Made by a program: the position numbers and the translations under genes
Assembly: GCA_002069885.1 (NCBI GenBank)
Contig: MWCD01000015.1
Location: 1-64,000 of the forward strand
Length of the DNA: 64,000 nt
Direction: 5' to 3'
DNA from: a bacterium ADurb.Bin236
Lineage (GTDB): Bacteria > UBP15 > UBA6099
The notes under the pieces: model-generated
Seen by the model: only the letters and a program-made list of their open reading frames with translations
The model's database searches: none
Told to the model about the DNA's origin: nothing
Part shown: one piece after another, positions 316 through 28,494 of the stretch
Numbering within the stretch: the stretch's first letter is position 1
Layout: every line of letters begins with the position of its first letter

Positions 316-1320
316 TCAAAATTCTTCAAGCCTTTTTTTCGGGTCGACCAACTGGACTATTCTCACTCCGAGTTTTTCGCCAACCGCTACTATTTCGCCC
401 ATTGCAACGTTCTTTTCATTCACAAAAATCTTCACCGGCTTCCTGTTTGAAGAATCCAGTCCCACAACCGAGCCGGGAGTTATGTCGAGCAACTTGCCTC
501 CGGTCACCCTCGCTCTTCCGAGTTCCACCGTCACTGTCACCGGGATGTCCAGAAGGAGCTCCAGATTTCTTTCTGTTTTATTTGCGGGAGCTTTGGCTTT
601 TTGAGCGGCGGCGGGCGTCTTTTTCTTGACTATTCTTGAAGCGTCGGTCTTGGCGGGAACGTTTGCAGCCGGAGGTTCGAACGCTTGGATTTTCTTTTTT
701 GCCGCAGGAGTCGCAGCAAGCGGTTTTGCCGCCGCGCGTCCGGCCGCCGGAGCCGAGGCTCCATCCGCGAACAACGCGTCTATGAACTGCTCCGGAAAAA
801 CCAGACGGATGAAAAATTCCGCGCCGTCCATCGACGCGGAAACCGATGCTGAAAAATATCTTGAGATTCCCGTAAGCGCGGGCAGACTCCGGAGGTGTCC
901 GCCTATTGTGTTAAGCGCCGCGGCGGGAGTTCCTGTTTTAAAAGGTTTTCCCAACAGGCCGGACGCGCTTTCCGCCGAGGCCGACCACGCTTGTTCCACA
1001 AGTTCGGACACTGCTCCCTTGTGAATATCCGAAAATTCGCCGGGCGGAACCGAAGCTCCCGGATTTATTATTCTTTCCGGAATCAAAGCGCCTTGCGGCA
1101 GTTGGATAAAAAGGACGGACAAACCGGGAACGGGAGCTGTCGCAGGAACAGTGACGGCGACATAGCGGCCTGAGTCGAGCGCGGCGACTTCAGCAGCGTC
1201 GAGTCGCTCCGCGGATGGCTTGCTGTATGTCAACTCACAACCGGCTATGCCGCTTGCGGAGACGCGAAACCGATCAAGAAATACGCTTATGAAATCAGTG
1301 ATTTTTTTAGATTCGCTCAC
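316..1320 (-). CDS. fliY: FliY/FliN-family flagellar switch protein with N-terminal CheC-like domain
   Basis: 334 residues, GTG start. The last ~80 residues form a SpoA (FliN) domain: LLDIPVTVTVELGRARVTGG, then DITPGSVVGLD, VNEKNVAMGEIVAV and a terminal IVQLVDP. A long Ala/Lys/Pro linker (about 195-250) precedes it. The first ~190 residues resemble the CheC-like part of FliY; the segment SELVEQAWSASAESAS lines up with the CheC active-site helix but has Glu where CheC has the key Asn, so phosphatase activity is doubtful (inference). Likely role: C-ring protein with FliM and FliG, controlling rotation and export docking. It lies 51 bp downstream of fliM. A shorter second FliN is encoded at 25901-26194. 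Confidence 0.85.
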   Translation of the reverse strand: MSESKKITDFISVFLDRFRVSASGIAGCELTYSKPSAERLDAAEVAALDSGRYVAVTVPATAPVPGLSVLFIQLPQGALIPERIINPGASVPPGEFSDIHKGAVSELVEQAWSASAESASGLLGKPFKTGTPAAALNTIGGHLRSLPALTGISRYFSASVSASMDGAEFFIRLVFPEQFIDALFADGASAPAAGRAAAKPLAATPAAKKKIQAFEPPAANVPAKTDASRIVKKKTPAAAQKAKAPANKTERNLELLLDIPVTVTVELGRARVTGGKLLDITPGSVVGLDSSNRKPVKIFVNEKNVAMGEIVAVGEKLGVRIVQLVDPKKRLEEF

Positions 1321-1371
1321 GGGGCAACCACAGGGCGCGCGTCATTTTTCGGTTCCGGACGCCCGCTGTAT

Positions 1372-2454
1372 TCAGATGTCTTCCCTGTCTTTCACCACGG
1401 CGGTCGTCTGCACAGCTATGCTCTTGCCCACTTGACCGGGGCGGCCTCTAAACTTAAGCTTGTTGCCCACATACACGTCGATGTCGTCGTCCGTTTTCGT
1501 CTGCAACTGCAACACATCGCCGACGTCGAGGCTGAGAAAATCTTTCAGGGTTATCTGCGTTTCGCCAAGCTCGGCCGTGACCAGCACGTTCGTCTTGAGA
1601 AGCCGTTTGGCAACTTTTATCGGGGTCTCCGGCGACACCGCCCGCCTGTATGTGGCGAACCACTGCTGTATGCTCAATTTCGGAAGAACCGTCTCAAGCA
1701 TCACGTACGGCAGCGCGATATTCATCCTGCCGGTCTTTTCGCCTATCTCCACTTCGAGGTTGACCAGCACTATCATCTCGTTCGGCGGAGTTATCTGCAC
1801 AAAGTACGGGTTGCTCTCTATGATTTCGAGCTTCGGGCTGAGGGTGATAACGTTGCTCCACGCGTCCTTGATGAAGTTGAGAGCGTCCATGATGACGCTT
1901 TCCATGATGTTAAGCTCAATGTCGGTCAGTTCGCGCGCTTCCTCTTCCTCTTCGCCGGAACCGCCCAGAAGCCTGTCCATGAGCGGGAAACCGATCTGCG
2001 GGCTGATGTCCATCACCGCGTTGCCTTCCATCGGGGGAAGACCGAAGATGCAAATCATAGACGGGTTGGAAACGGTGTTGATGAAGTCTTCGTAGGTTAC
2101 TTCTTCGACGGAGACGACTTTGATGCGGGTGAGAGCGCGGATTTTCGCTGACAGCGTGCTTGAGAGCAGCCGGGCGAAAGTCTCGTGTATCATCTGAATG
2201 GTTCGAATCTGGTCTTTTGAGAACTTGGACGCCCTCGAGAAGTCGTATGACTGGACATTCTTTGCGGTGTCGGCGCGAATGATTGTGGATGTTTGAGCCG
2301 GGGCTGAAGCGCCGCCGCCCATGTCGCCGAGATCAAAATCGCCGAGGTCAAGGCCGAGGTCTCCGCCTCCGCCGCCTCCTGACGGTCCGCCGGTGTCGTC
2401 GCCAAGCTGGTTTATCAGATCATCAATTGCGCTTTGTGACAGAAAGTCGCCCAA
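1372..2454 (-). CDS. fliM: Flagellar motor switch protein FliM
   Basis: 360 residues. The N-terminus GDFLSQSAIDDLINQL is the conserved CheY-P-binding segment, followed by an acidic, Gly-rich linker, a CheC-like middle domain (for example RIKVVSVEEVTYEDFINTVS, then a GGSGEEEEE segment) and a C-terminal SpoA domain (VLVTAELGETQITLKDFLSL...). FliM joins FliG to FliN/FliY in the C-ring and receives the chemotaxis signal. The start is TTG at 2454, placed by GGAGG eight nucleotides upstream. It sits between fliL and fliY, the usual order. Confidence 0.95.
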   Translation of the reverse strand: MGDFLSQSAIDDLINQLGDDTGGPSGGGGGGDLGLDLGDFDLGDMGGGASAPAQTSTIIRADTAKNVQSYDFSRASKFSKDQIRTIQMIHETFARLLSSTLSAKIRALTRIKVVSVEEVTYEDFINTVSNPSMICIFGLPPMEGNAVMDISPQIGFPLMDRLLGGSGEEEEEARELTDIELNIMESVIMDALNFIKDAWSNVITLSPKLEIIESNPYFVQITPPNEMIVLVNLEVEIGEKTGRMNIALPYVMLETVLPKLSIQQWFATYRRAVSPETPIKVAKRLLKTNVLVTAELGETQITLKDFLSLDVGDVLQLQTKTDDDIDVYVGNKLKFRGRPGQVGKSIAVQTTAVVKDREDI

Positions 2455-12923: not shown

Positions 12924-14255
12924 TCAGCCGAATATTCCTTTCAGAGATCTCTTTGCGTCTTCATATTCGATTTTCTCGAACAACCCCTGCCTGATGTAGT
13001 CGTTCATGCGCTCAATTCGCGTGATTGCGTAGTCGATTTTCGGGTTGCTGTCCTTCACATAAGCGCCGATGTTGATAAGGTCTTCGGCATCTCTGTGGGT
13101 GGCCATTACCTCGACAAATCTGCGGGAGAGTTGCAGATGCTCCTCGGAGGTGACATCCGGCATAACGCGGCTTATGCTCTGCATGACGTCCACCGCAGGA
13201 TAGATGTTGCGCGCGGCCAACGCTCTGGACAACACTATGTGTCCGTCCAGAATCGACCGCACAGTGTCCGCCACCGGCTCATTCATGTCGTCGGCTTCCA
13301 CAAGCACGTTGTATAGGCCGGTGATTGAGCCTTTTCCGGACATCCCGCTGCGTTCGAGCAGTTTCGGCAGCATGGTGAACAGGGACGGCGGGTATCCGCG
13401 CGTTGCCGGCGGCTCGCCAGTGGCCAACCCGAGTTCCCTTTGCGCGTACGCGAATCTTGTTATTGAATCTATCATTAATAATACGTTCTTGCCCCTGTCC
13501 CTGAAATACTCCGCTATCGCGGTCGCCAAATACGCCCCTTTGATTCTCATCAGCGGGGATTGATCCGACGTCGCAACCACCACTACCGATCTGGAAAGCC
13601 CTTCTTCCCCAAGGTCTCTTTCGATGAACTCGCGAACTTCGCGTCCGCGCTCGCCGATAAGACCGATTACGTTCACGTCGGCCTTGGTGAACCGGGCAAT
13701 CATTCCTATGACCGAGCTTTTTCCAACGCCGGAGCCTGAGAAAACGCCCATCCTCTGGCCTTTTCCCACTGTGAATAGTCCGTCAATCGCCCTTATCCCC
13801 AGCGGCATAGGCTCGGTTATCCTGCGTCTTTCGAGCGGCTTGGGCGGCGTCGCGTGAACCTGCACCGGGACCGCGTTGGGAATCCTTCCCAATCCGTCGA
13901 TCGGGTTGCCAAGGCCGTCCACCACCCGCCCGATGCTGTCTTCCGACACCATGACAGAAAGAGGTTTGCCGGAAGCGTGAACCTCGCATCCGGGGCTGAT
14001 TCCGTGCATGTCCGTGAACGGCATGAGCAGAAGCTTGTCGTCTCTGAAGCCGACCACCTCGCACGGGATGGGCGAGTTTCCATTCTGCGGGTAGATGACG
14101 CAATATTCGCCCATAGCCGCGCCGGGACCGCGCGATTCGATTATCACGCCGATCACGTCCGTCACCCGGCCTATCTGCCTGACCAGATTGAGATTGCCGA
14201 TCAGCTCTTTGAAATCGCTGACCCTGCGGGACGGTTGGGCTGTCTTAATGTTCAT
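12924..14255 (-). CDS. fliI: Flagellum-specific ATPase FliI
   Basis: 443 residues of the F1-beta-like type III secretion ATPase family. Walker A SGSGVGKS is at 173-180, the Walker B strand is NVLLMIDSITRFAYAQRELG, and the typical GEPPATRGYPPSLF and GRVVDGLGNPIDG segments are present. It energises export of rod, hook and filament subunits with FliH and FliJ. It is encoded between fliH and fliJ. Confidence 0.97.
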   Translation of the reverse strand: MNIKTAQPSRRVSDFKELIGNLNLVRQIGRVTDVIGVIIESRGPGAAMGEYCVIYPQNGNSPIPCEVVGFRDDKLLLMPFTDMHGISPGCEVHASGKPLSVMVSEDSIGRVVDGLGNPIDGLGRIPNAVPVQVHATPPKPLERRRITEPMPLGIRAIDGLFTVGKGQRMGVFSGSGVGKSSVIGMIARFTKADVNVIGLIGERGREVREFIERDLGEEGLSRSVVVVATSDQSPLMRIKGAYLATAIAEYFRDRGKNVLLMIDSITRFAYAQRELGLATGEPPATRGYPPSLFTMLPKLLERSGMSGKGSITGLYNVLVEADDMNEPVADTVRSILDGHIVLSRALAARNIYPAVDVMQSISRVMPDVTSEEHLQLSRRFVEVMATHRDAEDLINIGAYVKDSNPKIDYAITRIERMNDYIRQGLFEKIEYEDAKRSLKGIFG

Positions 14256-14281
14256 ATCTTAATATACCGGCTCGCGGGCGC

Positions 14282-15154
14282 TTACTCGTCTTCGCCCTCG
14301 ACCGCCTTCAATACGGCTTCCTGAACTTCTCCGAATTGCCTGTCTATCTGCGCGTCCACGACCCCGCTCTCGGTCTGCACGATGCAACCGCCCGGCTCGA
14401 CCTGCGGCGACGCCTTGAACTTTATCGACTCGTGATTCTGCACGACCGCGCGAATCTCGTCCGACGACCCCTTCAGAACCTCGATATCCAGCGGATTGAC
14501 GTGGATAACGAACTGTTTTTTGAAGCTGACTTTCGACAGCGCGTTCTTCACCACCGCCAGCACTGTGGTCGGATCGGTCATTATCTCTTTGTGAAGCACT
14601 TTTTCGGCGACCGCGAGCGCCATCTTGACTATATCGTTCTGGGATTCCGCGAGTATCTCGGTGTGGTACATTTTAAGTTGGTCTATGACTTGGCTCATCA
14701 TGCTGACGGCCCCGGCGGCTTCCTCGGATGCCGCGTTCTTGCCTTTGCCGTAACCGTCCTCATATCCTTTTTTAAAGCCGTCCTGTTCGCCGGAAGAATA
14801 ACCGGAGGCGTAAGCCTGCTTCATGTTCTGGTCGGCGTCGGCAGCGGCCTGCGCGCGCGCCTGCTCTAGTTCGAGCGCGGCGTCCCGGCGCGCCCGTTCC
14901 GTCTCGTCAGAGGCTTCCCGTCGCATTCTGGCGGCTTCTTCGCGCGCTACCTGCGTTATCTCCGCAGCCTCGCGCTGGGCGGCCTCGAGCGCGGCTTTCG
15001 CTGCCCGCGAATGCTCGGCTTCGCGCTCTTGCGAGCCAGCCTCGCCTTCGTCCGGCTCCTCCGGCATGAACAACTCTTCCGGAAACTCCGAAAACGTCAT
15101 CAGCCGGATTTTTCCGCCGTTGCTTCCCACTTCAGCTTGTTTGATTATGCGCAT
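14282..15154 (-). CDS. fliH: Flagellar assembly protein FliH
   Basis: 290 residues. A long charged coiled coil (about 45-140, Ala/Glu/Arg-rich) is followed by the glycine-repeat segment typical of FliH (ASGYSSGEQDGFKKGYEDGY, about 110-130) and a C-terminal V-ATPase E-subunit-like domain (MALAVAEKVLHKEIM, then FVIHVNPLDIEVL, CIVQTESGVVDAQID). It is the stator and negative regulator of FliI. Encoded between fliG and fliI. Confidence 0.92.
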   Translation of the reverse strand: MRIIKQAEVGSNGGKIRLMTFSEFPEELFMPEEPDEGEAGSQEREAEHSRAAKAALEAAQREAAEITQVAREEAARMRREASDETERARRDAALELEQARAQAAADADQNMKQAYASGYSSGEQDGFKKGYEDGYGKGKNAASEEAAGAVSMMSQVIDQLKMYHTEILAESQNDIVKMALAVAEKVLHKEIMTDPTTVLAVVKNALSKVSFKKQFVIHVNPLDIEVLKGSSDEIRAVVQNHESIKFKASPQVEPGGCIVQTESGVVDAQIDRQFGEVQEAVLKAVEGEDE

Positions 15155-15176
15155 ATCAGACTACCGTCCGTTTTTT

Positions 15177-16187
15177 TTAGAGCATCTCTCCGCCCTCGGA
15201 CCTGTAGTCCGAGATTTCTCCGGATTCGATCATTCCTCTGATGGTGTTCACAATATGCTGCTGCGCCTCTTCTATTTCCCTGAGCCGCACCGGGCCTGCG
15301 AAATCCATGTCTTCCTTCAACATTTCCGCCGCCCTCTTCGACATATTTCCATACACCTTCTGTTGCACTTCGTCCTTCATGTTCTTCAGCGCGGTGGCAA
15401 GCTGCGCGCTCTCTACTTGTCTGAGCACCTGCTGCAAGTCCCTGTCGTTGATTTTCACGATGTCCTCGAACACGAACATCCTCTTCTTGATCTCTTCGGC
15501 CAACTCGGGGTCTTCTTCGGACAGCTTGTCCATAATCTCGGACTCCGTCTTCCTGCCCACTCTGTTGAGTATCTCGACCACGCCGCCGATTCCGCCCGCC
15601 TCCGTGTACTCCGGGGACAACACCATCGATAGCTTTTTCTCCAGAACCTTCTCAACTTCCTTTATTACTTCCGGGCTGGTCCTGTCCATAAGCGCGATGC
15701 GCTTGGTCACCGAAACCTGTAGCGCCGGGTCATTGAGAGCCTTCATGATGTATGAAGACTGCGCGGGCGACAGATAGGAAAGGACGAGCGCGATAGTCTG
15801 AGGATGCTCGTTGCGGATGAAGTTTAACAACTGGTTCGGATCGCTCTTGCGGGCGAATTCGAACGGCGCGACGTCCAAGAACGTGGAGAGCCTGTTGATT
15901 ACGTCCATGGCTTTGCCCGTTCCCAGAGCGCGCTCGAGCACATCCCGCGCGTAATCTATGCCCCCGGCCAGTATGTACTCCTTGGCCATCGCCAGATTGT
16001 AGAATTCCTCAAGAACTCCCGCCTTTTCCTTAGGCGACAGCTTGTTGAGGCTGGCAATTTCCAGAGTCAGCCGCTCGATTTCGTTGTCGGACATGTGCTT
16101 AAAAATGTCCGCGGCTATCTCCGGGCCGAGCGCCACCATCATCATGGCGGCTTTTTTAATTCCGGTGTTCTTTTCGTCCTTTGCCAT
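15177..16187 (-). CDS. fliG: Flagellar motor switch protein FliG
   Basis: 336 residues with all three domains: the N-terminal FliF-binding part (KKAAMMMVALGPEIAADIFK), the middle domain with the EHPQTIALVL motif that contacts FliM, and the C-terminal torque helix region (FVFEDIVKINDRDLQQVLRQ). It couples the stator to rotation and is encoded right after fliF. Confidence 0.97.
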   Translation of the reverse strand: MAKDEKNTGIKKAAMMMVALGPEIAADIFKHMSDNEIERLTLEIASLNKLSPKEKAGVLEEFYNLAMAKEYILAGGIDYARDVLERALGTGKAMDVINRLSTFLDVAPFEFARKSDPNQLLNFIRNEHPQTIALVLSYLSPAQSSYIMKALNDPALQVSVTKRIALMDRTSPEVIKEVEKVLEKKLSMVLSPEYTEAGGIGGVVEILNRVGRKTESEIMDKLSEEDPELAEEIKKRMFVFEDIVKINDRDLQQVLRQVESAQLATALKNMKDEVQQKVYGNMSKRAAEMLKEDMDFAGPVRLREIEEAQQHIVNTIRGMIESGEISDYRSEGGEML

Positions 16188-16238
16188 TTATGCGGCTCCC
16201 GTGAGTAGGTCCGGGACATCGATCCCGGCCCCTTTATG

Positions 16239-17852
16239 TCAGTCGGTGTCTTGGAACAGCCATGAGCGCACTATCAAAGCCGCGCCCTCAGGATCGTCAT
16301 GTATCATCCGAAGCACTTCTTCCTTAATCTTCTCCCTCATCCTCTGCTCGTCCGACAGCTCAGGCGCGAGCAATTCCTCCACCGGCACAGGCTCTTCGAG
16401 AACTTCCTCCTCGAACTCCGGCTCCTGCGGCAACTCCTCGCGCACCACCCACGTCCTCATCGCCAGCAACGAGATCACCAGCGTCAGCAGTATCAGGAAG
16501 ATTATCAGCCCCACCCGCGTCCAGTACTTCACCGTCTCCATCTTCTGGTTGAAGATGTACTCGTCCTTCGGCCCCGGCTCGCCCGGCATGAACCTTATCG
16601 GCACCACGCTCACTTTGTCCCCGCGCTGCTCGTTCAGGTTCGCCGCGCTGATGACGTTCTCCCTGATTTCCATAATTCTTCTTCTCGTCAGGTACGTCTC
16701 TTCCCCGTACTTTATTCCCTCGTCGTTCAGCATCACGGCGACCGACATCATCCGTATGTCGCCCTGATTCTTCTGCGTCTTGTCCAGTCGGCGCGATATC
16801 TCGTAGTTCCTTGTTTCTTCCGTCCTGTTGTACTCGGCGTTGCCCTCGGCCAACCCCTTGTATCCGGGAATGTTCGACGTCGTCCCCGGCACTCCGATTT
16901 CAGGAACGGTTCCCGTGCCGAGATATTTCTCGTCGATCAGTTGTTCGCTTCGGACTATCCCGCTGTCGCCCACCACCGGAGTATAAATTTCATCCTCTAT
17001 CTCGTGGGAATCGTAATCAAGTTCGATCGACACCACGACCACCGTGTTGTCCTCGCCAAAAACCTTCGAAAGAGCCGCATAGACTTTCTTCTGGTAGATG
17101 TCTTCGAGAAGCGCCTTGTGCCTCAACTGAAGCTCGGTCAGCTTCATCTTTTCCTGCATTTTTTTCTTTTCGTCGAACTCGGAAAGGATATTTCCCTGAG
17201 AATCGACCACAATGACGTTTTTCGGGTCAAGCCCCTCGACAGAGGATGAAACCAACCGGACGATGCCGCTTACCTGATCCTCCGAAAGAGTCTTCCCTTT
17301 CACAAGCTGGACGGCGACCGAGGCCGTAGATTCTTCCGTATCAACCACGAACAGGCTCGGCTCCGGCTGAACCACCATCACCCTCGCCTGCTCGACGGCT
17401 TCGAGGCTCATTATCGTCCTTGATATCTCGCCCTCTATCGCCCTCTTGAGGTTGACTTTCTGCGTGAAATCCGTCACTCCCAGCCGGGTGGCGTCGAACA
17501 GTTCGTAGCCTACCGTGCTCTTGGCCGGAAGCCCCTTGGCCGCAAGCTCGTTCCTCAGTTCGTAGACCATTTTCTTGTCCACCAACACTGCTTTGCCGCT
17601 CTGCTCGATCGTGTACGGAGTTTTTGTCTTCTTCAACTCCTGCACTATCGCGCTGGCGTCTTCCGGTTCGAGGTTCGTGAAAAGAGGCTCGAAGCCTTTC
17701 TGTCCGCCCCTGATCAAGGCAAACATCAACACAGCGACAGCAAGAAGAGCCGCCGCTCCGGCCGCTCCCGCCGCTATCATCCGCTGCCTTTTGTTCGTCC
17801 GGGTCCAGAACTCGACCGCGCTGTCCTTCAGTTTCAAAAAACGCTCTTTCAT
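16239..17852 (-). CDS. fliF: Flagellar MS-ring protein FliF
   Basis: 537 residues. An N-terminal membrane helix lies at about 25-47 (IAAGAAGAAALLAVAVLMFA), followed by the YscJ ring-building domain (FEPLFTNLEPEDASAIVQEL, LAAKGLPAKSTVGYELFD) and the beta-collar region. A second helix (VGLIIFLILLTLVISLLAM) and a cytoplasmic tail end in the FliG-binding motif (EEVLRMIHDDPEGAALIVRS). FliF forms the membrane base on which the switch and export gate assemble. Gene order fliE-fliF-fliG is canonical. Confidence 0.97.
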   Translation of the reverse strand: MKERFLKLKDSAVEFWTRTNKRQRMIAAGAAGAAALLAVAVLMFALIRGGQKGFEPLFTNLEPEDASAIVQELKKTKTPYTIEQSGKAVLVDKKMVYELRNELAAKGLPAKSTVGYELFDATRLGVTDFTQKVNLKRAIEGEISRTIMSLEAVEQARVMVVQPEPSLFVVDTEESTASVAVQLVKGKTLSEDQVSGIVRLVSSSVEGLDPKNVIVVDSQGNILSEFDEKKKMQEKMKLTELQLRHKALLEDIYQKKVYAALSKVFGEDNTVVVVSIELDYDSHEIEDEIYTPVVGDSGIVRSEQLIDEKYLGTGTVPEIGVPGTTSNIPGYKGLAEGNAEYNRTEETRNYEISRRLDKTQKNQGDIRMMSVAVMLNDEGIKYGEETYLTRRRIMEIRENVISAANLNEQRGDKVSVVPIRFMPGEPGPKDEYIFNQKMETVKYWTRVGLIIFLILLTLVISLLAMRTWVVREELPQEPEFEEEVLEEPVPVEELLAPELSDEQRMREKIKEEVLRMIHDDPEGAALIVRSWLFQDTD

Positions 17853-17875
17853 TCGGCGCGCTCCCGTGTGTCAGT

Positions 17876-18184
17876 TTATACGGCGGTTCTCATCAGCGTG
17901 TTGAACGCCTCGACCGCCCTGTCTCTTATCTCCAGCGTCAAGCTCATCGCTATGCTAGCCTTCTCAATCGCTATCATCACCTGATGGATATCTTCGACTT
18001 CGCCCAGCGCGAGTTTAAACGCCATCTCGTCGGCGTGCGTCATCATGTCGTTCGTCGTTCCGACCGCCCTCTGCAACATCTGCGCGAACGTCTCGTCCGT
18101 TTTCGCGGGCGTGTCCGTCTCGAACGGAAACGGGGAACTCGGCCTTACCGGCCCGATCGACTGTACCGGGTCTATCGTAGTCAT
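17876..18184 (-). CDS. fliE: Flagellar hook-basal body complex protein FliE
   Basis: 102 residues with the FliE signature in the C-terminal half: AFKLALGEVEDIHQVMIAIE, then KASIAMSLTLEIRDRAVEAF and NTLMRTAV. It joins the MS ring to the rod. Encoded between flgC and fliF. Confidence 0.95.
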   Translation of the reverse strand: MTTIDPVQSIGPVRPSSPFPFETDTPAKTDETFAQMLQRAVGTTNDMMTHADEMAFKLALGEVEDIHQVMIAIEKASIAMSLTLEIRDRAVEAFNTLMRTAV

Positions 18185-18248
18185 GTTCTAATCCTCGTTT
18201 TCCTCTAGTCGCCGCGCGGCTTGCGCGCGGCCCTTATGCCGCCCTGTT

Positions 18249-18713
18249 TCAGGCGTTGCCTATCGATATCGCTTTCATCGCCATCGCTTTGGCGGAATTT
18301 ATCGCCGTCACGTTCGCCTCGTACGCTCTTGACGCGGATATCATGTCCACCATTTCCTTGATGACGTCCACATTCGGATACGCCACATAGCCTTCGTTGT
18401 TCGCGTCCGGATGCCCCGGCTCATATCTGAGCCTCGGCGGCGCGGGATCCTTCATCAGTTCCAGCACCTTCACTCCCTCGCCGGGATTCTGCATCTCGGT
18501 TTTAATCTTCATCGGAAGAAAGGGGAACTTCCTGAAAGTCATGTCAGTCTTGGACGCGAACACCACCAGTTGCCTCTTGAACGGGCCGCCTTCGGGCGTG
18601 CGCGTCGTGTCCACATTCGCTATGTTCCCAGCGATGACGTCCATCCTCAATCTCTGCGCCGTCAGCCCCGATGCGCTCGCGTCTATTGATGTGAACATTC
18701 CGTTGTTCGTCAT
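18249..18713 (-). CDS. flgC: Flagellar basal-body rod protein FlgC
   Basis: 154 residues. The N-terminal rod motif (ASGLTAQRLRMDVIAGNIAN) and the C-terminal signature (VDVIKEMVDMISASRAYEAN) are both intact, with the FlgC-specific YEPGHPDANNEGYVAYPNV before it. It is a proximal rod subunit. Encoded 21 bp after flgB. Confidence 0.97.
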   Translation of the reverse strand: MTNNGMFTSIDASASGLTAQRLRMDVIAGNIANVDTTRTPEGGPFKRQLVVFASKTDMTFRKFPFLPMKIKTEMQNPGEGVKVLELMKDPAPPRLRYEPGHPDANNEGYVAYPNVDVIKEMVDMISASRAYEANVTAINSAKAMAMKAISIGNA

Positions 18714-21845: not shown

Positions 21846-22322
21846 CTATTGCGAGCGAGTCCGCATTTTTACTTCGCGTCTCGCTTCTTTGTCCAACTCT
21901 CTTTTAATAATATCATCCTTTTTGTCATATTTTTTCTTGCTTTTCGCAAGTCCTATCTCAAGTTTAGCCCGATTTCCCTTAATATACATGTATAATGGCA
22001 AAATTGTCAGCCCTTTTCTCTGCACTCTCCCTACTATCGAATCAATTTCTCTCCTGTGCAAGAGCAGTTTCCTGTCCCTGAATGGGTCATGGTTGAAAAA
22101 TTCCCCGCTCTGCTTATATGGAGCTATCCGGGTCTGCGTCAGCCACGCCTCCCCCTCGATAATCTTAACATACCCTTCTTTCAGACTTACTCCGCCGTTT
22201 CTGGCGGATTTAATCTCCGAGCCTTTCAATACTAAACCGGCCTCGTACTTGTCGAGTATCTCGTAGTCGAAAAACGCTTTTTTGTTTTTCGCGATAATCT
22301 TCGTTTCCGCCTGTTTTGCCAT
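21846..22322 (-). CDS. smpB: SsrA-binding protein SmpB
   Basis: 158 residues. Hallmarks: NKKAFFDYEILDKYEAGLVL, GSEIKSARNGGVSLKEGYVK, then FFNHDPFRDRKLLLHRREID and a basic C-terminal tail (DKEARREVKMRTRSQ) that enters the mRNA channel. It forms the functional pair with tmRNA directly downstream. Confidence 0.97.
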   Translation of the reverse strand: MAKQAETKIIAKNKKAFFDYEILDKYEAGLVLKGSEIKSARNGGVSLKEGYVKIIEGEAWLTQTRIAPYKQSGEFFNHDPFRDRKLLLHRREIDSIVGRVQRKGLTILPLYMYIKGNRAKLEIGLAKSKKKYDKKDDIIKRELDKEARREVKMRTRSQ

Positions 22323-22330
22323 AAAGCCCG

Positions 22331-23647
22331 TTATCTGAGTTTCCTGTGCTTAAATTTTTTAGCGTGCGGCCCCATGTAGTCGTCCACAATCTGGCCCGAA
22401 CCACGAAGCAGATATTTGTAGATGACCAAGCCTTCCAGCCCGACCGGGCCGCGCGCGTGCGTCTTGTTCGTGCTTATTCCTATCTCGGCCCCTTTTCCGA
22501 ACCGGAATCCGTCCGAAAATCTTGTGGACGCGTTGAGGAACACGCAAGCGGAATCCACGTTTTTGAAGAAAAACTCCGCCGCTTTATTCGAACCCGTCAC
22601 TATGGAATCCGTGTGTTTCGAGCCGTGCTTGTTGATGTGCTCCACCGCCGCCTCGATTGAATCCACGACCTTCAATGAAACGATAAGGTCTAGGTATTCT
22701 GCGTCCCAGTCGGAAGGTTTCGCGGCCTTGAGTCCTTTCGCGAGCCGTCGGGACGCCGCGCAACCTCTGACTTCTACGTTGTGGTCCGCCAGAGCGCGGG
22801 CGAGTTGCGGCAGGAATCCCGCAGCTATGTCCTTGTGAACCAGAATCGTCTCCGCCGCGTTGCAGGCGGCAGGATACTGAGTCTTGGAGTCGATGGCTAT
22901 CGCCGTCGCCAGATTCCAGTCCGCCCCTTTGTCGATATAGACATGGCAGACGCCATCCGCGTGCCCTAGCACGGGAATGCGCGTGTTGTCCTGAATGTAC
23001 CTTACGAACTCATTGCTGCCGCGCGGAACGAGCAGGTCGATGTATTCGTCCATCGCGAGCACGCTTTTCACTTCGCGGCGCGTCTCTATCAACTGCGCCC
23101 AGCCCGCGGGGACTCCGGGAACCGCCTCTGCGGCGGCGCAGAGCGTGTCTTTAAGAACCCTGTTCGTCCTCGCGGCTTCGGAGCCTCCTTTGAGGATGAC
23201 CGCGTTGCCGGATTTCAAACAGAGGGCGGATATCTGAGGGACGACATCCGGGCGGGATTCGAAAATCGCTCCGATAACGCCTATCGGACACGAGACCTGT
23301 TCGAGGATGAGTCCGTCGTCCATTTCTATTTCCGATATCGCGCGGCCCACGGGGTCGGGCAGTTTCGCAACGCTCTCTACGCCTTCGGCCATGCCTTCGA
23401 TCTTGACATTGTCCACCATGAGGCGTTTCAGCATCGCCTGAGACAGTTTGCCTGAGGCTACCGCTCGGCGGGCGTCAGCCACATCCGCCGCGTTCGCTTT
23501 CAGAATCGCGTCCGCGTTCGCTCTCAAAGCCGCCGCCATCGCTTTGAGCGCCACCCTTTTCCGGCTGTCCTTGAGGTTGGCGAGTTCGAGCGCCGCCGCC
23601 CGCGCCGCCGCCGCCTTTTTCTTAAGCTCGTTGTCAGTTCCCGCCAT
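22331..23647 (-). CDS. proA: Gamma-glutamyl phosphate reductase ProA
   Basis: 438 residues from ATG 23647, preceded by a purine-rich GGGGGAAA. It reduces gamma-glutamyl phosphate to glutamate-5-semialdehyde in proline synthesis. The catalytic cysteine is in TQYPAACNAAETILVH; other family segments are CPIGVIGAIFESRPDVVPQI and LGHADGVCHVYIDKGADW. The gene ends eight bp before smpB begins, so proA, smpB and ssrA may be co-transcribed. Confidence 0.95.
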   Translation of the reverse strand: MAGTDNELKKKAAAARAAALELANLKDSRKRVALKAMAAALRANADAILKANAADVADARRAVASGKLSQAMLKRLMVDNVKIEGMAEGVESVAKLPDPVGRAISEIEMDDGLILEQVSCPIGVIGAIFESRPDVVPQISALCLKSGNAVILKGGSEAARTNRVLKDTLCAAAEAVPGVPAGWAQLIETRREVKSVLAMDEYIDLLVPRGSNEFVRYIQDNTRIPVLGHADGVCHVYIDKGADWNLATAIAIDSKTQYPAACNAAETILVHKDIAAGFLPQLARALADHNVEVRGCAASRRLAKGLKAAKPSDWDAEYLDLIVSLKVVDSIEAAVEHINKHGSKHTDSIVTGSNKAAEFFFKNVDSACVFLNASTRFSDGFRFGKGAEIGISTNKTHARGPVGLEGLVIYKYLLRGSGQIVDDYMGPHAKKFKHRKLR

Positions 23648-23780
23648 GTCCGTTTCCCCCGTCAACGTCAATTCCACGCCGGTTTCATGCGTCCAGCGCG
23701 CGCGATGCCCGCGCTTTGCGTATCTTTATATAATCGGTTATATCCGTGAAATATTCAATCGCCCCTGTTCTTAATTCGCG

Positions 23781-24890
23781 TTAGAACAGAGTCAGGTCGT
23801 CCCTGTGAATCACGTCGTCGGATATCTTGTGTCCGAGCATATTAAAAATATCGGACGATTGGCGTCCCATGATTTTTTTAATTTCCTCGGAGGAATAACT
23901 TGTCAGCCCTTTGGCGAAACACATGCCGGACTCGCCGCAGACCTGAACGCAGGCTCCCCGGTCGAATTTTTTCTTTACGGCAACAATGCCGCTCGGCAGC
24001 AGACTTTTGCCTTTCTTCTGAATCATCTCCCGCGCGCCATCGTTCACAACAATTCTGCCTTCGGGCAGACATCCGATCAGCCACTTCTTGCGCGCCGAAA
24101 GCGGGGTGGGCTGAGGGACGAAGGTAGTGCCGATTTTCTCGCCGTCGATCACTCGCGACATGACCGAGGGAGTCGAGCCGTCCGCGATAATCATCTTTAT
24201 GCCTGAGTCCATGCACATCTGGGCGGCCTCAAGCTTTGTGGCCATGCCGCCGGAGCCTCCTGAGCGCGGCCCGCGCGCTTTCAGGAAGAGTTCTTCCGTT
24301 ATTTCCGTCACTGTTTCCAGCAGGCGCGCGTCCTCGCACACCGCCGGGTCGTCGCTGCACAGCCCGCTGACGTCTGATAGGTTTATCAGCAGGTCGGCGT
24401 CCACTAGTATCGCCGTCATCGCCGCCAGCCGGTCATTGTCTCCAAACTTAATTTCCTCTATGGCGACAGTGTCGTTTTCATTGACAATCGGCAAAGCTCG
24501 AAGGGCCAGCAGCGCCCTCAGCGTGTTGCGCGCGTTAAGGTATTTCCGCCTGTCGTTTATCACGTCGGGAGTCAGGAGCGCCTGCGCGGCCACTATGCCG
24601 TGAGCCGAAAACAGCTCGCTGTATCTGGCAATGAGCATGCCCTGCCCGACCGCCGCCGCCGCCTGTTTCTGATTGATGCTTATATTTGCCGGGTCCAGAT
24701 TCAGCATCGGCGCGCCCGTCCTTATGGCTCCTGATGACACCACGACGATGTCCAGCCCGCGCTCATGCAGTCTGGCCGTCTCCTTCACGAAGTCCCTCAT
24801 GTGGGAGCCGTCTATCCTGCCGTCCGGCCCAGTGAGCGTGCGGCTGCCGATCTTTATCACTACTCGCTTCGGTTTTTTAATTTTCGACAT
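23781..24890 (-). CDS. proB: Glutamate 5-kinase ProB (with PUA domain)
   Basis: 369 residues: an amino-acid-kinase domain (VVIKIGSRTLTGPDGRIDGS, then VVVSSGAIRTGAPML and PIVNENDTVAIEEIKFGDND) and a C-terminal PUA domain (about 280-369). It phosphorylates glutamate for proline synthesis; proA follows. Its first 14 bases overlap the end of the obg gene, so translation is probably coupled. Confidence 0.95.
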   Translation of the reverse strand: MSKIKKPKRVVIKIGSRTLTGPDGRIDGSHMRDFVKETARLHERGLDIVVVSSGAIRTGAPMLNLDPANISINQKQAAAAVGQGMLIARYSELFSAHGIVAAQALLTPDVINDRRKYLNARNTLRALLALRALPIVNENDTVAIEEIKFGDNDRLAAMTAILVDADLLINLSDVSGLCSDDPAVCEDARLLETVTEITEELFLKARGPRSGGSGGMATKLEAAQMCMDSGIKMIIADGSTPSVMSRVIDGEKIGTTFVPQPTPLSARKKWLIGCLPEGRIVVNDGAREMIQKKGKSLLPSGIVAVKKKFDRGACVQVCGESGMCFAKGLTSYSSEEIKKIMGRQSSDIFNMLGHKISDDVIHRDDLTLF

Positions 24891-25851
24891 CTTCAGTCAG
24901 TCCTAAAGATTGCGATATCGCGGCTCTCAGGTCTTCAAGCCCTTCTCCCCGCGCCGCGTTTATTTCTATGTCTCGCGCCGCGCCTTCGGGAGGGCTTTCC
25001 GCGTCTCGCCTGTTATACACCACAAGCCGCTTCTTTTCCAGATATTCAGGGTCGTAAGCGGCAAGCTCTCGCAGCAGCGTTTCCACCTGAGCTTCCGGTT
25101 CCGGCGCTTCAGGGCGGAAATCTATCAGCAACACGATTAGCTCCACTCTTCGCAGATGCCGCAAAAAGAAGTTGCCCACTCCGCGCCCTTCGGACGAGCC
25201 GTCGGCTAGCGCGGGCATATCCAGCATTCTGAAGCTCGCGAACTCCCCTGCGCCGCAAACGCCTATGTACGGCTTCCTCGTCGTGAAGTCATATTCGCCG
25301 ACGGGAGTTCGGGAGCCTGTTAGAGCGCGGACGAGAGTGGATTTTCCCGCCCCCGGAAAACCAATGACGGCTGTTTCGGAGGGTATGCTGTATTCAAGAG
25401 AAAGAGCGCGCTCCTCGCTTTCGCCGCCCGGCTCGAATTCGAGCGGAACCCGGTTCTTGGGAGTCGCGAAATGCATATTGCCTCTGCCGCCGGAGCCGCC
25501 GGCTGAGACTATGATTTTGTCGCCGTTAGCCGCAAGGTCGGCTAAAAGTTCGCCTGTCTCGGCGTCCAGAACCGCGGTTCCGGCTGGAACGCGAACGATA
25601 AGGTCGGCGCCTGCGCGTCCGTATTTTCCCGATTTCCCGCCGGCCCCTCCGGAGGGCGCGCGAAAAACAGTTCCGGGTTTGATGTCTCTGAGGGAATTGA
25701 CTTTGTCGTGGGCCGCTATAATCACGTGACCGCCGCGCCCGCCGTCTCCGCCGTCCGGGCCGCCGCGCGGCACATATTTTTCTCTTCTGAAACTGGCGCT
25801 GCCGTCGCCGCCGCGACCGCCGCGCGCCCTGATGCTTACAGTGTCCCGCAT
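24877..25851 (-). CDS. obg: Obg/CgtA-family GTPase with altered G motifs
   Basis: 324 residues. The N-terminal Obg fold is typical (VSIRARGGRGGDGSASFRRE, GGDGGRGGHVI and SGGRGNMHFATPKNRVP). In the G domain, G1 (GFPGAGKST, 164-172) and switch I (DFTTRKPYIGV) are intact. G3, DxPG in the family, is DMPA (211-214), and G4, NKxD, reads NRRD (280-283). G5 (NAARGEGLEDL) looks normal. Obg assists 50S assembly and ppGpp signalling; the obg-proB-proA order is common, so this is probably the genome's Obg even though GTP hydrolysis or specificity may be changed. No C-terminal OCT domain is present. Confidence 0.85.
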   Translation of the reverse strand: MRDTVSIRARGGRGGDGSASFRREKYVPRGGPDGGDGGRGGHVIIAAHDKVNSLRDIKPGTVFRAPSGGAGGKSGKYGRAGADLIVRVPAGTAVLDAETGELLADLAANGDKIIVSAGGSGGRGNMHFATPKNRVPLEFEPGGESEERALSLEYSIPSETAVIGFPGAGKSTLVRALTGSRTPVGEYDFTTRKPYIGVCGAGEFASFRMLDMPALADGSSEGRGVGNFFLRHLRRVELIVLLIDFRPEAPEPEAQVETLLRELAAYDPEYLEKKRLVVYNRRDAESPPEGAARDIEINAARGEGLEDLRAAISQSLGLTEDVEN

Positions 25852-25900: not shown

Positions 25901-26194
25901 TCACGCGCCGATTTTGCGCCCTTCGCTCAACGCCTGCTTCACAGCTTCGGGGATGGAGCCGACTATGTCCGTGACACGCAACGCGTACTTGCCGTCTATC
26001 ACCATCACTTCGCCGCGCGCGACGAGCTTCTTGTTCACGAGAAAATCGATCCTGTCGCCTGTCGACGTGTCCAGCTCGATCACCGTCCCCGGCTTCATAT
26101 CGAGTATCTCTTTAAACAGCTTCTTCGTCCGCCCCAGCTCCACGCTGACGGTCATATCGACGTCTCTTATCAGTTCCAGATCTTTCTCCGACAC
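25901..26194 (-). CDS. fliN: Stand-alone FliN flagellar switch protein (SpoA domain)
   Basis: 97 residues from GTG 26194, chosen because GGAGGT lies seven bases upstream; longer frames have no such signal. It is a single SpoA domain: IRDVDMTVSVELGRTKKLFK, ILDMKPGTVIELDTSTGD, VNKKLVARGEVMVIDGKYA. This is canonical FliN, which builds the C-ring floor. It lies outside the main flagellar cluster, between obg and fdhD, and coexists with the longer FliY-like protein at 316-1320. Confidence 0.88.
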   Translation of the reverse strand: MSEKDLELIRDVDMTVSVELGRTKKLFKEILDMKPGTVIELDTSTGDRIDFLVNKKLVARGEVMVIDGKYALRVTDIVGSIPEAVKQALSEGRKIGA

Positions 26195-26432
26195 GAAACT
26201 ACCTCCGTCTTCAGCTTCATATCGCTTCTGATAGCTGTCAACGGAATTAACACTACCACATTTATAAAGGCAACGCAAGCGCCCCGGTTCATTCCGCGCG
26301 CCTGCGACCACCGCCGGTTGACCCGTTTCGACTCCCGGCTTTCATCCTAGACTGTTTTTGTTTACACTTAATGATATCCTGTGGTCCGGCTTCGCTGTTG
26401 CCGCGCCGCCTTTGCCCGAAAGGTTTTCTCTA

Positions 26433-27324: not shown

Positions 27325-28494
27325 TTATTCTTTGTTTTTATCCAGATCGATCATGTCTCCTATGCTGATGCCGCTGGAGCCGTTGTCGATGTACTGTTTG
27401 AATTCGCCGGAAACCTTGGACGATTTCTCTACAGGAAGGCCGAGTTTTATGCGCCTGCCTTTGGGATCGACGTTTAGGATTTTCACTTTCACTTCGTCGC
27501 CAGAGTTCAATTTGATGTTCTCGCCGCCGGCCTTTTCCTGTTCCAGTTCGCTGATGTGGAGAAGCCCCTCGAAGCCGTCGCGGAGCATGACGAACGCGCC
27601 GAACTTCACCATCTTTACGACTGAGCCGACGATTATCTCGCCGACCGCGAAATGCTCGTCAACCTTGTCCCACGGGTCGCCCGCCGCTTGCTTCATGCTG
27701 AGAGATATCCGTTTGCTGTCGGGGTCGAAATCGAGCACTTTCACTTTGACTTCCTGCCCGCAGGAAAGGGCCTGAGACGGATGCCCGACGCGCGACCACG
27801 CAATCTCAGACACGTGAACAAGCCCTTCGACTCCGCCGCCGATATCAACGAACGCCCCGAAATTGGTGAGACGAGTGACTCGGCCGTCTATGATTGAATC
27901 CTTTTGCAGGGTCTCGAACGCTTCGCCTTGAGCTTCGTCCTGCTGCTTCTTGAGCCATTCCCGGTGCGACACCACGATGTTTTCCGTCTCGGTGTTGAAC
28001 TCGATGATGTAAACGGGCAGCTTCTTTCCTATAAGCTCGGAGGCCTGCGTCTGGATGCCCAGATGAGAGCCGGGAAGAAACGCGTGGCGGGGAAGCCCTA
28101 TATCAGTTCGGTATCCGCCTTTGACCTGCTGAATTATTTCAGCTTCAACCGGCTCGCCGTCTTCATGTTTCTTGGCCAGAGTATCCCACAGCCTTCTTGC
28201 GACGACTTTTTCGTACGACAGATAGATATCTTCGCCTGAAACCCGGTCGACCATCACTTCCACTTCGTCGTCTATCTTCCATTCCTTGTCGGCGTCCGGC
28301 CCTCGCCTGAACTCTGCGACGGGTATTCTTCCCTCAGACTTGAACCCGGTGCTGACATATACGAATTCCTCATCGACCTTGGATATGCGGCCGAGAATAA
28401 TGTCGCCGACCTCGATAGTGAACGGAACGCTCATCGCCACGTTCAGCGGCGTTCCGAAATAATCCTCATCCAGTTTCCCTTTTTCCACAGTCAT
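27325..28494 (-). CDS. rpsA: 30S ribosomal protein S1-like protein (four S1 domains)
   Basis: 389 residues. Four OB-fold S1 repeats can be read: GDIILGRISKVDEEFVYVST, then GEPVEAEIIQQVKGGYRTDI, DGRVTRLTNFGAFVDIGGGV and GSVVKMVKFGAFVMLRDGFE. The last two have the canonical GAFV and HVSE/HISE elements. Four domains rather than six is the form found in Firmicutes and several other phyla. It binds mRNA at the ribosome. AGGAGAAAAGGAA lies before ATG 28494. Confidence 0.88.
   Translation of the reverse strand: MTVEKGKLDEDYFGTPLNVAMSVPFTIEVGDIILGRISKVDEEFVYVSTGFKSEGRIPVAEFRRGPDADKEWKIDDEVEVMVDRVSGEDIYLSYEKVVARRLWDTLAKKHEDGEPVEAEIIQQVKGGYRTDIGLPRHAFLPGSHLGIQTQASELIGKKLPVYIIEFNTETENIVVSHREWLKKQQDEAQGEAFETLQKDSIIDGRVTRLTNFGAFVDIGGGVEGLVHVSEIAWSRVGHPSQALSCGQEVKVKVLDFDPDSKRISLSMKQAAGDPWDKVDEHFAVGEIIVGSVVKMVKFGAFVMLRDGFEGLLHISELEQEKAGGENIKLNSGDEVKVKILNVDPKGRRIKLGLPVEKSSKVSGEFKQYIDNGSSGISIGDMIDLDKNKE

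Follow-up and report, generated by a model that had tools for sequence, protein, structure and literature searches.

The ordinary Obg protein is a ribosome-dependent GTPase that binds the 50S ribosomal subunit through its N domain and serves in anti-association and in late assembly (PMC4028186). It hydrolyses GTP slowly and exchanges nucleotide fast, and its state is believed to follow the GTP/GDP ratio of the cell (PMC6982127). The question touched on here is whether Obg can do its essential work without the GTPase cycle, and E. coli strains can live on alleles that do not bind nucleotide. The ObgE* variants N283I and D286Y, both altered in the NKxD motif, have abolished nucleotide binding and support viability as the sole copy; this result was obtained in a K268-mutant ObgE* background, and a G166V allele failed to support viability (PMC6982127). 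In addition, a four-residue deletion in the region linking the N and G domains silences toxic ObgE* (PMC6982127).

Several motif positions discussed below have been characterised in other GTPases. In Ras, the G3 Gly-to-Ala substitution G60A drastically impairs intrinsic GTPase activity and holds the GTP-bound protein in state 1 (PMC4867591), and the G4 Lys-to-Arg substitution K117R lowers nucleotide affinity and raises exchange while hydrolysis is kept (PMC8295990). MnmE and FeoB use the Asn of G1 to contact their activating K+ (PMC3466195). In the literature searched (most subscription journals lie outside its coverage) we found no description of a natural Obg with an altered G3, and nothing relevant on UBP15 or on an Obg pseudo-GTPase.

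The obg gene, its product and its motifs

The window analysed here is a stretch of 64,000 nucleotides from a UBP15 genome, and its minus-strand open reading frame at 24877..25851 (obg, also cgtA) encodes an Obg of 324 aa that is the only one in the genome. The product scores above the cut-offs of TIGR02729 (Obg_CgtA; 310.9 bits, cut-off 280.25) and NF008956 (305.3, cut-off 300) and below that of NF008955 (319, cut-off 406), and it has no C-terminal OCT/TGS extension. Its nearest solved structures are Obg from T. thermophilus (1UDX, the best at 255 bits) and from B. subtilis (1LNZ). The N-terminal glycine-rich domain (residues 1-153; 25393..25851, minus strand) is ordinary, with a PF01018 score of 171.5 bits (cut-off 27) that bears out the intact Obg fold described in an initial annotation. 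The protein is thus a divergent Obg orthologue and not a new family.

The gene lies between a fliN-like gene for a C-ring protein (25901..26311, minus; PF01052 84.0 bits, TIGR02480 83.5 bits, just below the cut-off of 84.05) and proB (23781..24890, minus; TIGR01027 408.9 bits), which shares 14 bases with the end of obg. These are followed by proA (22331..23677, minus; NF001221 543 bits) and smpB (21846..22322, minus; NF003843 194.9 bits). The same two neighbours flank obg in one relative from another genus of the order (G005), and a fliN-like gene lies upstream in a second (G006). The position of the fliN-like gene directly before obg, in the window and in order relatives, is accompanied in the window by further flagellar genes at 12924-18713 (FliI-, FliH-, FliG-, FliF- and FlgC-like by eye), close to smpB and an rpsA-like gene, both for translation. 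An S1-like protein of 389 aa (27325-28494, minus) is encoded near the fliN-obg run and reaches the curated cut-off of none of the 30S S1 models shown.

The two substitutions named in the initial annotation, DMPA for DxPG and NRRD for NKxD, are confirmed in the translated frame. The first changes the G3 Gly to Ala (residues 211-214; 25210..25221, minus; codons GAT ATG CCC GCG) and the second the G4 Lys to Arg (residues 280-283; 25003..25014, minus; codons AAC AGG CGA GAC). The Gly and Lys so replaced are invariant, at 47/47 each, in aligned outgroup Obgs, about half of which were fetched with a DxPG pattern; the 24 chosen without the pattern all have the G3 Gly as well.

Three further changes had gone unremarked. 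G1 was described as intact, and the P-loop GFPGAGKST (residues 164-172; 25336..25362, minus) does keep G-x4-GKST, but the Asn of GxPNxGKS is replaced by Gly167; this fourth position is Asn in 45 and Ser in 2 of the 47 outgroup Obgs. G5, also said to be intact, is not: alignment places NA at residues 298-299 (24955..24960, minus) and DA in three congeners, instead of an SA whose Ser is present in 94% of outgroup Obgs. The N-G linker SLEYS (residues 151-155; 25387..25401, minus), which matches the region of E. coli LLEL 153-156, reads LEYS where most Obgs have LELK, with Tyr for a Leu of 98% frequency and Ser for a Lys of 94%. Switch I, YDFTT (residues 187-191; 25279..25293, minus), has its Thr-Thr intact and Asp in place of Pro, and switch II retains its conserved glycines and FL.H.

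Occurrence of the changes within and outside the order

Seven genomes of the order were available, with completeness from 67 to 97%: four from the genus of the window (G000-G003), one from another genus of the same family (G004) and two from other genera (G005, G006). The G3 Ala is present in all seven, as DMPA in the window's genus and in G004 (on a contig fragment) and as DLPA in G005 and G006. A DNA pattern for D-h-P-A in the switch-II context of Obg matched six of the seven, G004 differing elsewhere in the pattern, and outside the order it matched one of 379 genomes, at a non-Obg site. This single outside match, in genome G111, was rejected as an Obg; that genome has a DxPG match elsewhere. 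The Gly version of the pattern matched none of the seven order members and 99 of 138 outside genomes, the 39 unmatched ones not being counted as exceptions since this pattern misses some ordinary Obgs through other positions; among these, G019, G027 and G032 were read, and all three have PG. Across these patterns and the 47 aligned outgroup Obgs, no Obg with a G3 Ala was seen outside the order.

The G4 motif has a different distribution. NRRD occurs only in the four congeners, while G004 has NKTD, G005 NKID and G006 NEKQ. The initial annotation had raised the prospect of canonical motifs in close relatives; none has one at G3, and for G4 the answer is divided, two genera having NKxD and one NEKQ. 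Because the G3 Ala is found in 7/7 members and NRRD only in the window's genus, the G3 Gly-to-Ala change is, on this sequence comparison, the older one, common to the order, and the G4 Lys-to-Arg change is later and local. The P-loop Asn is replaced by Gly in two of the order's three families. All members retain the P-loop Lys-Ser, the switch-I Thr-Thr and the G3 Asp, and all except G006 the G4 Asn-x-x-Asp. In a tree, the order's Obgs fall on one side of a branch with support 100/98 and a long branch leads to the window's genus, in a topology whose bootstrap support is unsettled overall. The sole Obg of G006 (contig C390, 1426-2469, plus strand) is more extreme than that of the window, with G4 lost, G5 unrecognisable and the P-loop Asn kept.

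A read error at 24999-25225, considered in the initial annotation, is excluded because both substitutions recur in three congeneric MAGs, separate public assemblies that are 96-97% identical and whose G3 codons differ synonymously (GAT/GAC, CCC/CCA). These three congeners were all that a scan of genome contigs recovered. An Obg N-domain search gave one match per genome in the window genome and its six order relatives (7/7). The suggestion of a non-hydrolysing paralogue is therefore not supported, no second Obg having been found in these genomes; nor is there an obg beside rplU-rpmA, which are on a different contig and followed by a moaA-like gene. More generally, an artefact (a read error, a mis-binned contig or a paralogue alongside a canonical Obg) might be entertained given that the congeneric records are all metagenome assemblies and the genomes incomplete, but it is largely refuted already by four congeneric MAGs with the same substitutions and synonymous differences among them, by similar gene neighbours in order relatives and by the single Obg-domain match in each of seven genomes, and we consider it very improbable.

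Genome-wide drift of GTPase motifs was also rejected: Der, MnmE, HflX and IF-2 of the same genome keep DxxG and NKxD, and the change is therefore Obg-specific among the GTPases read. The genome further encodes a DRG-like GTPase with a TGS domain (by eye; G000:C26:38969-39517, 730-1740, plus strand) that has DTPP at G3 and a canonical NKxD, and the counterpart in G006 has DTGP at G3.

Domain divergence and nucleotide use

Divergence in these Obgs is concentrated in the G domain. Among 38 near-invariant columns in each domain, the numbers changed in the N and G domains are 2 and 14 in the window's Obg, 4 and 11 in G005 and 3 and 8 in G006, compared with a maximum of 4 and 6 and a median of 1 and 1 in other bacteria (47 Obgs, leave-one-out). 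Likewise, G-domain identity divided by N-domain identity gives 0.76, 0.85 and 0.88 in the order, whereas none of 24 outgroup Obgs selected regardless of G3 falls below 0.906. Comparison within the window's genus gives dN/dS values of 0-0.13 (N domain) and 0.06-0.19 (G domain), which are rough because they rest on few changes. The losses of G-domain columns together with low present dN/dS therefore point to strong divergence on older branches and constraint today. Along with the strict retention of GKS, FTT and the G3 Asp, the low G-domain values show that selection continues, and the G domain is thus not devoid of function. An AlphaFold2 model from the four congeneric sequences (mean pLDDT 41.6) is too poor to judge geometry.

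The reading that we somewhat favour is that this is a functional, vertically inherited sole Obg whose 50S role resides in the N domain and whose G domain binds guanine nucleotide yet switches and hydrolyses poorly. The intact N domain would presumably perform the usual Obg work on the 50S subunit, in late assembly and anti-association. The G3 Gly-to-Ala change would have arisen in the ancestor of the order, with other changes following lineage by lineage: P-loop Asn to Gly in two of the three families, G4 Lys to Arg and G5 Ser to Asn/Asp in the window's genus, and the disappearance of G4 and G5 from G006. Nucleotide binding is expected to persist in the window's genus because GKST, the switch-I Thr, the G3 Asp and the G4 Asn/Asp are kept; Mg-guanine nucleotide would most likely still be bound, exchanged fast, hydrolysed slowly and only weakly coupled to the N domain. 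Weak switching and hydrolysis are thus what we would expect by analogy, and guanine specificity may be lost in G006, which lacks the G4 Lys and Asp. Such changes would be tolerable because E. coli ObgE alleles without nucleotide binding stay viable (PMC6982127). The proposal in the initial annotation of weaker or altered nucleotide use in an essential ribosome-assembly factor fits the sole Obg, the purifying selection and the several G-domain departures. Against this reading, the analogies with Ras come from a different GTPase family, normal kinetics could be regained through compensating contacts, and the viability of the ObgE* alleles was seen in the K268-mutant background, where G166V failed. 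To our knowledge, Obg is not a glutamine-dependent GTPase.

Compensation of this kind is the core of a rather doubtful alternative, in which the substitutions are tolerated and the protein remains a normally cycling GTPase: the Ala backbone amide would reach the gamma phosphate, the Arg would stack on guanine, and changes in switch II and the linker would restore coupling. Purifying selection on the G domain is consistent with this, as are the conserved glycines and FL.H of switch II and the G1 Lys/Ser, switch-I Thr, G3 Asp and G4 Asn/Asp kept in the genus. However, the G3 Ala was not found in the other Obgs sampled, Ras G60A is severely impaired (PMC4867591), and G006, without the G4 Lys, the G4 Asp and G5, fits poorly with a strict requirement for recognising guanine across the order. 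G006, with NEKQ at G4 and no recognisable G5, speaks rather for a true pseudo-GTPase in which nucleotide binding is lost and the G domain serves the N domain as a scaffold, and so do the 8-14 of 38 near-invariant G-domain columns changed and the viability of ObgE* alleles without nucleotide binding (PMC6982127). Nevertheless, we think this unlikely given the low G-domain dN/dS and the presence of the P-loop Lys-Ser, switch-I Thr-Thr and G3 Asp in all members and of the G4 Asn-x-x-Asp in all but G006. A broader hypothesis, less likely than not, is that the whole order uncoupled its sole Obg from GTP hydrolysis, the ancestral G3 Ala having frozen the switch, guanine recognition having eroded independently (through Lys to Arg in one genus and through the loss of G4 and G5 in another) and the factor working without a GTP cycle.

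Comparison with known systems

The motif changes, the single copy, the conservation and the selection can be read from the genomes themselves, and the change is real, specific and conserved; it is the effect on function, comprising all of the biochemistry and the 50S role, that we infer. With the Obg/CgtA family (TIGR02729; E. coli ObgE, B. subtilis 1LNZ, T. thermophilus 1UDX) the window's Obg shares the two-domain order, the Obg fold and the single copy. It differs from ordinary members in its G3 Ala, P-loop Gly for Asn, G4 Arg, G5 Asn/Asp and altered N-G linker, and its gene is separate from rplU-rpmA, with a fliN-like gene and proB as its neighbours.

Septin pseudoGTPases and RGK proteins are eukaryotic, and their gene families still include canonical paralogues. 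They resemble the present case in that canonical G motifs are gone but a role in binding or as a scaffold remains (septins: PMC10731463), but the genomes of this order contain no other Obg.

The nearest laboratory counterparts are E. coli ObgE* N283I and D286Y, in which a sole-copy Obg with a damaged G4 is viable (PMC6982127). The order seems to have gone the same way in nature. It is an evolutionary counterpart to those alleles, with a sole-copy Obg under selection that has conserved its 50S-binding half and lost an otherwise fixed switch-II glycine, and its seven sequenced species, from an uncultured order, offer a natural test of the need for the GTP cycle. In contrast to the ObgE* mutants, which are laboratory alleles in a K268-mutant background, the changes here are natural, the one at G3 is order-wide, and the G4 Asn/Asp are kept in the window's genus.
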